This document shows positions 11,920 to 16,042 of a stretch of DNA of 64,000 bases, one piece after another (position 1 is the stretch's first letter; each line of letters opens with the position of its first letter). The position numbers were made by a program, and so were the translations under genes. This DNA comes from Roseicyclus marinus (GTDB taxonomy: Bacteria > Pseudomonadota > Alphaproteobacteria > Rhodobacterales > Rhodobacteraceae), in the NCBI RefSeq assembly GCF_030163795.1, contig NZ_JASJOF010000005.1, positions 1 to 64,000 on the forward strand. Reading direction: 5' to 3'. The notes under the pieces were generated by a model. That model saw only the letters and a program-made list of their open reading frames with translations. It made no database searches and had not been told where the DNA came from.

Positions 11920-12861
11920 ATGAGCCAGAGCCAGACCGACCGACCGCTTTTGGGCATCGTCTTGATGCTGGGCTTTTGCGTGCTGATCCCGTTTTCGGAT
12001 GCCTTGGCCAAGCTGTTGGGCGGGATATTCCCGCTGGTGCAGCTGATCGTGATCCGGTTCGCGGCGCAGGCGGGATTGCTGCTGCCCGTGGCGCTGGCGC
12101 GGGGGGCGGTGATCTTTCCCTCGGTCCGGGTGGTGCGGCTGGCGGCCTTGCGGGCGCTGTTGCAGATCGGGGGGATCGGGATGATGTTCTCGGCCCTGCG
12201 GTTCCTGCCCTTGGCGGATGCGGTGGCCATTGCCTTTGTGATGCCCTTCATCATGCTGGTCCTTGGGCATTACGTCTTGAAGGAAGAGGTGGGGCCACGG
12301 CGGATGGCGGCCTGCGCGGTGGGCTTTGTCGGCACGCTGATGGTGGTGCAGCCCAGTTTCGCCGCCGTGGGCTGGCCCGCGCTGTTGCCGCTGGGAGTGG
12401 CGGTGATCTTTGCGCTGTTCATGCTGGTGACGCGCCAGATCGCCAAGGACATCGATCCCATCGCCTTGCAGGGATTGGGCGGGATTTTGGGATTGCCGCT
12501 GCTCTTGCCGCTGTTGTTCCTGCCCGAGTTCGGGGGAACCCCGCCGCTGATCGGGTGGGTCGCGCCGCCCGATGCGGGGGCGTTGTGGCTGTTGGTGGCC
12601 TTGGGGCTGACGGGAACCTTCGGGCATCTGTTGATGACATGGTCGCTCCGCTTTGCGCCGGCGGCGACGCTTGCGCCGATGCAATACCTTGAAATCCCGG
12701 TGGCGGCGCTGGTCGGGTTGGCGATTTTCGGGGAATTCCCGAACGGGCTGGCGCTGGCTGGGATCGGGGTCACGATCGCCTCTGGCCTCTATATCGTCTT
12801 CCGGGAACGCAACCTGAGCCGGGCCGCGCGGGTCACGACGCCCGCACCCCCCGCCGGGTGA
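11920..12861 (+). CDS. DMT superfamily (EamA) permease
   Basis: 313 residues with about ten hydrophobic helices in two EamA repeats (about 10-145 and 160-300). Family features include the DALAKLLGG motif after helix 1, the internal ADAVAIAFVMPFIMLVLGH block, and PMQYLEIPVAALVGLAIFGE near the end. These proteins export or import small metabolites; the substrate cannot be inferred. ATG 11920 follows the ChaC stop by 31 bases with AGGAAG upstream, and it is the last gene of the ycjX-ycjF-chaC run. The N terminus before helix 1 is short and polar. Confidence 0.86.
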   Translation: MSQSQTDRPLLGIVLMLGFCVLIPFSDALAKLLGGIFPLVQLIVIRFAAQAGLLLPVALARGAVIFPSVRVVRLAALRALLQIGGIGMMFSALRFLPLADAVAIAFVMPFIMLVLGHYVLKEEVGPRRMAACAVGFVGTLMVVQPSFAAVGWPALLPLGVAVIFALFMLVTRQIAKDIDPIALQGLGGILGLPLLLPLLFLPEFGGTPPLIGWVAPPDAGALWLLVALGLTGTFGHLLMTWSLRFAPAATLAPMQYLEIPVAALVGLAIFGEFPNGLALAGIGVTIASGLYIVFRERNLSRAARVTTPAPPAG

Positions 12862-12899
12862 TGCGGGTCACCCCCTTGGGGCAGGATCGTCTTTGCGGA

Positions 12900-12928
12900 T
12901 TGAGCTTGGTGCGGTGGCGTCCTATACT
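12900..12928 (+). promoter_or_regulatory. Sigma-70-like promoter for the ileS leader
   Basis: TTGAGC (12900-12905), a 17-base spacer and TATACT (12923-12928). Both hexamers are close to consensus and the spacing is ideal. The expected start point, 6-8 bases downstream, falls at 12934-12936, on or next to the ATG of the Ile-rich leader ORF, so the leader may be translated from a leaderless mRNA. Confidence 0.65.
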
Positions 12929-12935
12929 GCCGTGC

Positions 12936-12986
12936 ATGGAACAGCGTTCGATCATCATCATTCGAATTAGCCGCCCGGCGCTCTGA
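12936..12986 (+). CDS. Candidate Ile-rich leader peptide upstream of ileS
   Basis: A 16-codon ORF encoding MEQRSIIIIRISRPAL, with four consecutive isoleucine codons (ATC ATC ATC ATT) and a fifth (ATT) two codons later, 90 bases before ileS. Five Ile in 16 residues directly upstream of the isoleucyl-tRNA synthetase gene is what a ribosome-mediated attenuator would need. A near-consensus promoter ends 7 bases before the ATG, and no Shine-Dalgarno would be transcribed. The last codons lie in the 5' arm of a stable hairpin. Real translation and regulation are inferred, not shown; a chance ORF cannot be excluded. Confidence 0.6.
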   Translation: MEQRSIIIIRISRPAL

Positions 12987-13071
12987 CCCCCTGAGCCGCC
13001 GGGACATAGGTGCTTGAGCTATCGCACCGCCCCTTCTATTCCCCGAACCGATCCGACAGATGAGGAGCGCC
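12974..13071 (+). promoter_or_regulatory. Candidate attenuator RNA structure of ileS
   Basis: Hairpin A: CCCGGCG-CTC (12974-12983) pairs with GAG-C-CGCCGGG (12993-13003), 10 bp with one bulge; its 5' arm is the end of the leader ORF. Hairpin B: GGTGC (13009-13013) pairs with GCACC (13024-13028), followed by a C/T-rich stretch, a weak terminator at best. Alternative: GGCGCTC (12977-12983) is also perfectly complementary to GAGCGCC (13065-13071), which overlaps the ileS ribosome site AGGAG (13063-13067). Mutually exclusive pairings of this kind could control translation of ileS. Confidence 0.45.
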
Positions 13072-13075
13072 CGCG

Positions 13076-16042
13076 ATGTGCGCCGATACGACGACAGACG
13101 TCGACTACAAGGACACGCTGAACCTGCCCAAGACCGAGTTCCCGATGCGCGCGGGCCTGCCCCAGCGCGAACCGGGCTGGCTGGCCCGCTGGGAGGAGAT
13201 CGGCGTCTACGACCGCCTCCGCGACAAGGCCAAGGATGGCACGCGCAAGCCCTTTACCCTGCATGACGGCCCTCCCTACGCCAACGGGAACCTGCATATC
13301 GGCCACGCGCTGAACAAGATCCTGAAGGACATGGTGGTGCGAAGCCAGCAGATGATGGGCCGCGATGCCCGCTACATCCCCGGCTGGGACTGCCACGGCC
13401 TGCCCATCGAATGGAAGATCGAGGAAGCCTACCGCGCCAAGGGGCAGGACAAGGACAAGATCGACGTCGTCGACTTCCGGCAGGAATGCCGCCGCTTTGC
13501 CGAGGGCTGGATCGACGTGCAGCGCGAGGAGTTCAAGCGGCTGGGCGTGACCGGGACATGGGACAAGCCCTACCTGACCATGGATTTCCACGCCGAGCGC
13601 GTGATCGCCGAGGAATTCCAGAAATTCCTGATGAACGGGTCGCTCTATCAAGGGTCCAAGCCCGTGATGTGGTCGCCCGTGGAAAAGACCGCGCTGGCCG
13701 AAGCGGAGGTGGAATACCACGACCGCCAGACGGATGCGGTTTGGGTGCCTTTTGATGTGGTAGGCAGCAGCTACCTCGGGATCGCCGAGACCAACGAAGC
13801 GTCCCACGCCGATATGTTGCGGCATCAGGACTTGAAGACATCGAAGGTCGTCATCTGGACAACCACGCCGTGGACGCTCCCCCAGAACCGCGCGATCTGT
13901 TTCGGCCCGGATATCTCATATGGCCTTTACGAGATCACCGGCACGCCTGCGGAAAGCTGGGCCAAGACCGGCGACCGTTACCTGATCGCGGACAAGCTTG
14001 CGCCCGAGGCGCTGGCGGCCATGCGGCTGGAGCCCACGATGCACCGCCGCCTGCGCGATGTGACGGCCGGGGAACTGGCCGCGCTGACCTGTGCCCATCC
14101 CTTGCGCGGGGCGGAAGGTGCGGCCGGCGAATGGGATTACGATGTCCCGCTTTTCCCCGGCGATCACGTGACCGACGATGCGGGCACGGGGTTTGTGCAT
14201 ACCGCGCCCAGCCACGGCGACGACGATTTCGAGATCGGGCGCAAGCATGGCTTGGCCATGACCTACAACATCCTCGACGATTCGTCCTTCCGGCCGGACC
14301 TGCCGTTCTTTGCGGGCGAGCAGATCATCAAGCCAAACGGCAAGCCGGGCGATGCCAACAAGGTGGTGATCGACAAGCTGGTGAGCCTTGGCAAGCTGCT
14401 CGCGCGCAAGCGGATCACGATCAGCGATGCGCATTCGTGGCGGTCGAAAGCGCCCGTTATCCGTCTGAACCGCCCACAGTGGTTTGCCGCCATCGACAAG
14501 CCGCTGGGCGACGGGATGGACCAATACGGCGAGACGATCCGGACGCGCGCCCTGACCTCTATCGACAAGCTGGTGGAATGGACGCCCAAGACGGGGCGCA
14601 ACCGGCTTTATTCCATGATCGAGGCGCGGCCCGATTGGGTTCTGTCGCGCCAGCGCGCCTGGGGCGTGCCGCTGACCTGTTTCATCAAGAAGGGTGCGCA
14701 GCCGACCGACCCCGATTTCCTGCTGCGCGACCCGGCCGTGAATGCCCGCATCCTCGAGGCTTTCGAGGCCGAGGGCGCGGATGCCTGGTACAAGCCCGGC
14801 GCGAAAGCCCGCTTCTTGGGGAACGAATACGACCCCGAGGCATGGGATCAGGTCTTCGACATTCTCGACGTGTGGTTCGATTCCGGGTCCACCCATGCTT
14901 TCGTGCTGCGCGACCGGGAAGACGGGTCCGAGGACGGGATCGCGGACCTGTATCTGGAGGGCACCGACCAGCACCGGGGGTGGTTCCATTCCTCGATGTT
15001 GCAGGCCTGCGGCACGATCGGGCGCGCGCCCTATCGGGGGGTTCTGACCCACGGTTTCACGCTGGACGAGAAGGGCATGAAGATGTCCAAGTCCATCGGC
15101 AACACCGTCGCCCCGCAAGAGGTCATCGACCAATACGGCGCCGATATCCTGCGGCTTTGGGTGGCGCAGTCGGACTATACCGTCGATCTGCGGATCGGGC
15201 CCGAGATCCTGAAAGGCGTGGCCGACAGCTATCGCCGGTTGCGCAACACGATGCGGTTCCTGCTGGGGTCGCTGGGCGATGTGACGGCGGCGGATCGGGT
15301 GGAGCCGGCCGATATGCCGGAACTGGAGCGCTGGGTGCTGCACCGGTTGTCGGAACTGGATGAGACCGTCCGCAAGGGCTATGCCGCCTATGATTTCCAG
15401 GGCGTGTTCCAGGCGCTGTTCAACTTTGCCACCACGGATCTGTCGGCTTTCTACTTCGATATCCGCAAGGATGCGCTCTATTGCGACGGGGATACGCCGC
15501 GCCGCAGGGCTGCGCGGACGGTGCTGGAAATGCTCTTCGAGCGGCTGACCACGTGGCTGGCCCCGGTTCTGGTCTTTACCATGGAAGAGGTCTGGCTGGA
15601 CCGGCATCCGGGCGATGCGTCGAGCGTGCATTTGCAGGATTTCCCGGAGACCCCGGCAAGCTGGCGCGACGAGGCGCTGGCGGCGAAATGGGCCGATATC
15701 CGGCGGGTACGCCGGGTCGTCACCGCCGCACTGGAGGTACAGCGCCGGGACAAGGTGATCGGTGCATCGCTGGAAGCGGCGCCGCTGGTGCAGATCGCCG
15801 ATCCGGCGCTGGCCGCGACCATCAAAGGCGTGGGGATGGATGACCTGTGCATCACATCGGCGCTGAGCGTGATGGAGGGCGAGCCGCAAGACGACGCCTT
15901 CCGGCTCGACGATCCGGGCATCGGCGTGGTCTTTCACAAGGCGGATGGCGAGAAATGCCAGCGCTGCTGGAAGATCCTGCCCGACGTGGGCAGCCATGCG
16001 CATGCGGGCGTCTGTGGACGCTGTGACGAGGCGCTGGGTTAA
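13076..16042 (+). CDS. ileS: Isoleucyl-tRNA synthetase
   Basis: 988 residues, class I synthetase that charges tRNA-Ile. The HIGH motif is HIGH at 74-77 (YANGNLHIGHALNK) and KMSKS is at 669-673. The editing domain (CP1) contains TTPWTLPQNRAICFGPD. The C terminus carries a zinc finger, CQRCW...CGRCD. AGGAG at 13063-13067 precedes the ATG by 8 bases. It is preceded by its own promoter and an Ile-rich leader ORF, which suggests feedback by isoleucyl-tRNA charging. The next gene converges 9 bases away on the other strand. Confidence 0.98.
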   Translation: MCADTTTDVDYKDTLNLPKTEFPMRAGLPQREPGWLARWEEIGVYDRLRDKAKDGTRKPFTLHDGPPYANGNLHIGHALNKILKDMVVRSQQMMGRDARYIPGWDCHGLPIEWKIEEAYRAKGQDKDKIDVVDFRQECRRFAEGWIDVQREEFKRLGVTGTWDKPYLTMDFHAERVIAEEFQKFLMNGSLYQGSKPVMWSPVEKTALAEAEVEYHDRQTDAVWVPFDVVGSSYLGIAETNEASHADMLRHQDLKTSKVVIWTTTPWTLPQNRAICFGPDISYGLYEITGTPAESWAKTGDRYLIADKLAPEALAAMRLEPTMHRRLRDVTAGELAALTCAHPLRGAEGAAGEWDYDVPLFPGDHVTDDAGTGFVHTAPSHGDDDFEIGRKHGLAMTYNILDDSSFRPDLPFFAGEQIIKPNGKPGDANKVVIDKLVSLGKLLARKRITISDAHSWRSKAPVIRLNRPQWFAAIDKPLGDGMDQYGETIRTRALTSIDKLVEWTPKTGRNRLYSMIEARPDWVLSRQRAWGVPLTCFIKKGAQPTDPDFLLRDPAVNARILEAFEAEGADAWYKPGAKARFLGNEYDPEAWDQVFDILDVWFDSGSTHAFVLRDREDGSEDGIADLYLEGTDQHRGWFHSSMLQACGTIGRAPYRGVLTHGFTLDEKGMKMSKSIGNTVAPQEVIDQYGADILRLWVAQSDYTVDLRIGPEILKGVADSYRRLRNTMRFLLGSLGDVTAADRVEPADMPELERWVLHRLSELDETVRKGYAAYDFQGVFQALFNFATTDLSAFYFDIRKDALYCDGDTPRRRAARTVLEMLFERLTTWLAPVLVFTMEEVWLDRHPGDASSVHLQDFPETPASWRDEALAAKWADIRRVRRVVTAALEVQRRDKVIGASLEAAPLVQIADPALAATIKGVGMDDLCITSALSVMEGEPQDDAFRLDDPGIGVVFHKADGEKCQRCWKILPDVGSHAHAGVCGRCDEALG

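Follow-up and report, generated by a model that had tools for sequence, protein, structure and literature searches.

A probably leaderless leader ORF and hairpin recurring upstream of ileS in Alphaproteobacteria, a candidate isoleucyl-tRNA sensor

The leader locus upstream of ileS in Roseicyclus marinus

The window, a stretch of 64,000 nucleotides from R. marinus, carries the isoleucyl-tRNA synthetase gene ileS (13076-16042, 988 aa) on the forward strand, and the features of its leader lie upstream on the same strand. A sigma-70-type promoter, TTGAGC-17-TATACT, was located at 12900-12928, with the -35 hexamer at 12900-12905, the -10 hexamer at 12923-12928 and a spacer of 17 nt. An earlier sequence-only reading of the locus had called this promoter ideal; the site itself was found again (one site against 0.2 expected in shuffles), but because 9 of the 12 consensus positions were matched it was graded as good. 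The leader ORF, MEQRSIIIIRISRPAL* (12936-12986), is 16 codons long and probably leaderless, and its ATG begins 7 nt past the -10 hexamer. As that reading had described, it contains five Ile codons, four of them in tandem (12951-12962). The tandem codons stand directly 5' of a near-invariant CGA-ATT-A (12963-12969), which joins a rare Arg codon to a rare Ile codon.

The local pairing proposed earlier for the last codons of the leader was likewise confirmed in the sequence. In hairpin P1 (12974-13003), CCCGGCGCTC (12974-12983) pairs with GAGCCGCCGGG (12993-13003, GAG-C-CGCCGGG) with one bulged base, and the leader stop codon TGA (12984-12986) lies within the loop. A second hairpin, P2 (13009-13028, GGTGC with GCACC), is a feature of Rhodobacteraceae-type copies, and the region of the ileS ribosome site contains GAGCGCC (13065-13071), which is complementary to GGCGCTC (12977-12983) in the 5' arm of P1.

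No intrinsic terminator was found in 12600-13400 of the window. The Rfam search of 12000-14000 returned no T-box or other family, with one sub-threshold lncRNA match elsewhere in the region, and 20 other loci with copies of the element gave no Rfam match up to E=1. A codon-swapped search of the R. marinus genome for CGA-NNN-A with the same hairpin gave four matches, one of which was the ileS copy. The comparison with other genomes confirmed that the arrangement at this locus is one copy of a larger recurring element.

Distribution of the element and its second gene

The element can be described as a probably leaderless ORF that ends in CGA-ATT-A-N4-CCCGG (Arg-Ile-x-x-Pro), followed by P1, usually with the stop codon inside. 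Judged by this motif, it recurs upstream of ileS across Alphaproteobacteria. Of 148 ileS upstream regions, 64 contained the exact CGAATTA-N4-CCCGG, against 0 of 148 when the regions were either reversed or reverse-complemented, and 60 of the 64 were outside the Rhodobacteraceae; the link between leader and ileS, which the sequence-only reading had discussed for the Rhodobacterales, thus goes far past that order. Four regions matched with one mismatch and 10 with two, some of the latter false, while both controls gave none at 0 or 1 mismatch. Even with two mismatches allowed, 74 of the 148 regions showed no copy of the element, and several of the 10 two-mismatch matches were not copies; three of them (L131, L136, L160) were rejected as the end of ribF. 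These 148 regions were among the matches listed from 332 genomes with an IleS match, five from the same family and the rest from the same class, and because the list favoured the IleS proteins nearest to the query, the class as a whole may have a different share. Variant copies kept the isoleucine, with CAA-ATT in L132, GGG-ATT in L223 and CGA-ATC in L171.

Within the family, 28 of 30 IleS loci had CGAATTA-N4-CCCGG upstream; L030 was without the element, and L014 was an internal fragment that offered no upstream DNA. A covariance model built from the motif and P1 matched 106 of the 120 genomes of the family, with two matches in five. In a phylum sample the model matched 35 of 259 genomes, all 35 from the same class, the number of out-of-class genomes in that sample not being given. 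Named carriers before ileS, among the matches listed, were Rhizobium, Mesorhizobium, Bosea, Methylocella, Methylobacterium, Xanthobacter, Hyphomonas, Phenylobacterium and Ruegeria; the element preceded ileS both in Phenylobacterium (L327) and in a Caulobacterales MAG (L280). A contig scan for the motif with the CCGGG arm found at least 119 stretches. The 80 listed comprised 54 before ileS, 8 before the second gene described below and 18 before neither by tblastn, and several of the 18 lie in other phyla and are probably due to chance. As a gauge of chance, 385 class genomes were searched with an N3-spaced pattern, which occurred in 47 of them; N4 occurred in 138. Chance matches also exist within the N4 count, among them a conserved rho coding sequence (EANYLPG) in L259, L260 and L264, and such matches are a trap for pattern counts.

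The sequence features described in the next section were tabulated for 165 copies, all picked by exact CGAATTA-N4-CCCGG. L032, L047 and L050 (the last without the required CCGGG match) are absent from this table, as are exact duplicates of other entries, for example L009 and L083. The ileS copies counted include L293, although its locus ends 168 bases after the motif start.

A second gene was found behind the same element. It encodes an unannotated IlvN-like protein with an ACT domain, about 100 residues long, which is widespread as a stand-alone protein (L384-L413). Among the best 30 loci examined for it, 26 had the element within 300 nt upstream, 23 of them exactly and 3 with one mismatch, and the reversed control gave none at up to two mismatches. 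The profile of this protein matched in 79 of 337 class genomes. The protein is predicted to fold as beta-alpha-beta-beta-alpha-beta (mean pLDDT 89.5), the PDB structure closest to the model was IlvN with valine (5ypp, E 1.7e-5), and Pfam and NCBIfam returned sub-threshold ACT and acetolactate-synthase small-subunit matches and no named family. By its fold, the protein likely binds a branched-chain amino acid. The order element, ACT gene, ileS was seen in three genomes, and at two ACT loci the next genes encode what we take to be citramalate-synthase-like and LivK-like proteins. The ACT leaders fell into two layouts: 14 of 26 ORFs run through P1 and overlap the candidate ACT start by 14-35 nt, and 12 of 26 stop in P1, so that one mechanism must serve both.

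Frame, codons and hairpins of the leader

An in-frame ATG (frame of CGA, stop-free, within 90 nt) was present in 161 of 161 copies, compared with 25 and 16 of 161 for the other two frames; L198, L207, L235 and L328, with less than 120 nt upstream, were left out of this test, and L032, L047 and L050, outside the 165-copy table, were also in frame. Because the frame is conserved, the leader ORF is taken to be translated.

The promoters are compatible with the proposal that the ORF is leaderless. Of 34 family copies, 28 had the ATG 6-8 nt past the end of the -10 hexamer and 2 had no visible -10; for 107 other ileS copies the corresponding numbers were 61 and 28. All 32 family copies with a -10 near the ATG scored best at a 17-nt spacer, ties being broken towards 17, and 30 of the 32 had a -35 with at least 4 of 6 consensus bases. 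A mapped transcription start is available for Methylorubrum extorquens DM4, where the dRNA-seq data in PMC9320726 place the ileS start 150 nt upstream of the gene and 7 nt after a TAGAAG -10. At the M. haplocladii locus TAGAAG is followed after 6 nt by the leader ATG, which stands 187 nt before ileS. Read across from this related species, we infer that the mapped M. extorquens base would be the A of the leader ATG. In most copies with a visible -10, transcription probably begins on the leader ATG or beside it.

Isoleucine codons were enriched just before CGA. At codons -1, -2 and -3, Ile was found in 79, 62 and 56 % of 34 family copies, 25, 28 and 24 % of 113 other ileS copies and 21, 29 and 43 % of 14 ACT copies. 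Over the six codons before CGA, the Ile fractions were 77/204 in the family, 44/360 in the class, 71/318 in the named loci and 15/84 in the ACT leaders. Read in the other frames, the same groups gave 1-5 %, and five window genes gave 4 %. The Ile codons noted at the single locus are therefore a selected feature, but the run of four is not conserved. It varies between copies, and many have a single Ile codon, the ATT of CGA-ATT; the same-family leaders differ widely, MTGWMAPMARITGPAL and MQCDPQFQRIKVPAR being without an Ile run, and Arg-Ile-x-x-Pro is the constant part of the family leaders. Across the copies this one Ile codon, ATT after CGA, is nearly fixed. Among 148 regions, every Arg-Ile pair located five bases before CCCGG was written CGA-ATT (65/65). 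Both codons are rare in five window genes (CGA, 6 of 207 Arg codons; ATT, 4 of 95 Ile codons), and it follows that selection acts on the nucleotides or on the codons themselves.

A side group of five loci (L108, L109, L110, L336, L426) carries the hairpin CCCGGCCTGATC...GGCCGGG with a peptide ending in RIxxPA*, and is not located before ileS. Its neighbours are an NTF2-like DUF6841 gene (L108-L110) and a kinase-like ATP-binding ORF (L336, L426). The motif stands at position 1500 of each 3-kb locus, L336 being in an 8-kb locus. Ile enrichment was absent in four side-group copies (2/24 in frame, 5/24 in another frame).

The fixed codons bear on two alternative explanations. The first is that the leader acts through its product, with a short nascent peptide R-I-[ITS]-x-P-[AV] arresting the ribosome, so that the signal may exceed tRNA-Ile charging alone. 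Residue limits would fit such a peptide: codon +2, Ile in 66 of 165 copies, carries A at its second position in 4 of 165 against 107 of 410 ANN codons of five window genes, and codon +5 has a purine there in 1 of 165 against 536 of 991 GNN codons of the same genes, although these residue counts come from 165 copies picked by exact CGAATTA-N4-CCCGG. On the 5' side of the helix, a purine occurs in 0 of 162 at depth 6 and in 58 of 162 at depth 7, and the limits at codons +2 and +5 are unexplained by P1. An arrest peptide, however, would not be expected to enrich Ile 5' of the motif, as a codon sensor would, and CGA and ATT are fixed as codons, beyond the residues they encode. We regard this explanation as doubtful.

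The second is a switch in RNA stability, in which GA-AUU before P1 would be an RNase E site (GA|AUU) that a halted ribosome shields, so that Ile shortage would stabilise ileS mRNA. It accounts for the fixation of the rare CGA-ATT-A at the nucleotide level (65/65), and GA|AUU preceding a hairpin fits the sites in PMC6238624. But a fit to a consensus is weak evidence, the main text of PMC6238624 does not mention ileS, and the variants do not follow the site, L171 having ATC and L132 and L223 an altered CGA. An RNase E switch is unlikely.

P1 is, by its pattern of change, a real RNA helix that starts 5 nt after the fixed Ile codon. A closing partner for CCCGG was present in 58 of the 60 class copies, a set unselected for the 3' arm, and in 162 of 165 copies overall, compared with 52 of 165 after simple shuffling; the named loci had been picked for the CCGGG arm and are therefore uninformative as a test of P1. 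Among 27 equal-length hairpins, 19 cells were changed on both sides against 5.2 in shuffles, and P1 and P2 together showed 15 both-side changes in 22 family sequences against 4.6, the compensatory changes by which the local hairpin had been proposed to be checked. A 51-row hairpin alignment, in which shorter hairpins were off by one column, was dropped in favour of a 32-row one. In the family set P2 had 88.7 % of its cells paired, with one pair occurring as CG in nine and UA in eight; the automatic consensus fold of the 22 sequences recovered P1 and not P2. The stop codon lay within P1 in 153 of 162 copies and contacted the terminal loop in 114, and the ORF extended past P1 in 9 of 162. These 9 run-past ORFs and the 14 of 26 ACT overlaps do not fit a single simple two-state model.

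The outer stem, CCCGG:CCGGG, is nearly invariant, as would suit a protein operator. In that case IleRS, or the ACT protein with the branched-chain amino-acid binding likely from its fold, would bind P1 to control the mRNA, and the ORF would be secondary. Under such control the maintenance of ORF frame, Ile codons and stop position would go unexplained, and the ACT protein is absent in the five same-family genomes listed, that of R. marinus included, at least four of which have the element (not found in G288). A protein operator is highly improbable.

The sequence-only reading had centred on the 7-base pairing of 12977-12983 with 13065-13071, by which the 5' arm of P1 would alternatively cover the ileS ribosome site. 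The pairing exists in the window and is made up of 7-9 Watson-Crick pairs in each of the 11 same-genus regions, which are conserved in sequence in any case. It did not hold outside the genus: 1 of 17 same-family regions (L023, 7 pairs, 4/200 shuffles) beat 95 % of shuffles, a test weaker for the 5 of 17 windows that were anchored on the alignment start and not on the true start codon, and L012 kept GAGCGCC with a changed arm. No conserved alternative partner for P1 was found past the genus in the 11 same-genus and 17 other same-family regions. The ribosome-site pairing was rejected as a conserved part of the element outside the genus, and a translational switch of this form is very unlikely.

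P1 as an intrinsic terminator was also rejected as a general rule, TTTT within 10 nt after P1 being present in 0 of 34 family, 9 of 58 class, 6 of 53 named and 2 of 13 ACT copies. The element was therefore not filed as a classical terminator attenuator. In the family, the region 3' of P1 has a C fraction of 0.49 and a G fraction of 0.18; such a C-rich, G-poor stretch might suit Rho.

A candidate isoleucyl-tRNA sensor and its relation to known systems

There is very little doubt that the element exists and has some regulatory role, and sensing of Ile-tRNA is the best reading of its codon and hairpin pattern. We consider it probable that the leader is a cis-acting, ribosome-mediated isoleucyl-tRNA sensor for ileS, whose starved state would raise ileS expression. 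When charged tRNA-Ile is scarce, the ribosome would stop at the Ile codons and leave P1, which begins just 3' of them, intact; given ample charged tRNA-Ile, it would move into P1, terminate there and open the hairpin. The two ribosome positions would give two leader states, a readout of Ile-tRNA. Higher ileS expression in the starved state is a direction suggested by physiology, and induction of ileS on Ile-tRNA shortage is plausible. Candidate output steps are Rho-dependent termination, RNA stability and access to the ileS start.

By counting, the first base of P1 would lie about 12 nt from the start of the P-site codon in a ribosome waiting at the fixed AUU, which we take to be near the ribosome mRNA entry. 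The hairpin would thus stand at the mRNA entry while AUU occupies the A site, and hairpin and weak CGA-AUU pair would therefore form a single-codon gauge. More tentatively, and with less confidence than in the sensor itself, we propose a class-wide unit built around one rare pair, CGA-AUU, 5 nt before a stop-holding CCCGG hairpin. This leaderless single-codon gauge of Ile-tRNA, with no terminator or antiterminator, may govern ileS and the ACT protein as an isoleucine regulon not recognised before. If so, a single near-invariant codon on a leaderless mRNA governing a synthetase would be an example of an amino-acid gauge with very few parts, many unannotated small ORFs across Alphaproteobacteria would become testable sensors, and the ACT-domain protein would be assigned to the isoleucine response. 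With CGA-ATT fixed at the codon level, synonymous changes are predicted to matter.

Ribosome-mediated attenuators (trp, his, ilvB, pheST) sense charged tRNA with a short translated leader in which cognate codons precede an RNA hairpin. Proteobacterial attenuators are reportedly the subject of Vitreschak et al. 2004. The ileS element is similar in having a translated leader with cognate Ile codons 5' of a hairpin. It differs in often having a single Ile codon, fixed as CGA-ATT, in the lack of a general terminator or of a conserved antiterminator among the copies searched, in a P1 that encloses the stop codon, in being probably leaderless and in its class-wide set of two genes, ileS and that of the ACT protein. 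Leader attenuators of synthetase genes are among the cases named in PMC1262725 (pheST and trpS/leuS), as is the T-box riboswitch before ileS in Firmicutes and Actinobacteria, which controls ileS by tRNA charging. In contrast to the present element, the T-box binds tRNA directly, without a translated ORF, and no Rfam T-box match was found at the window or the 20 other loci.

Within Alphaproteobacteria, the trpL/rnTrpL leader of Sinorhizobium meliloti is also a leaderless leader ORF, seen by Ribo-seq (PMC10117765); unlike the ileS element it serves the trpE attenuator, and the main text of that paper does not mention ileS. In Caulobacter crescentus, a small translated CDS before ileS, the "ileS leader CDS" CCNA_03934, was seen by ribosome profiling and cited as a negative control (PMC4117421), and is possibly the same element as the leader in the window; no motif, conservation or mechanism is given in the pertinent passage. 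The same paper places a small leader CDS on the C. crescentus trpS mRNA too, so leader ORFs before synthetase genes may be commoner in the class. The one-line mention of the ileS leader CDS was the only earlier trace met in the open-licence literature as consulted, which agrees with the earlier statement that such control is not well described, and an earlier prediction is possible. Beside these systems, the element is best read as a ribosome-mediated Ile-tRNA sensor of a new architecture.
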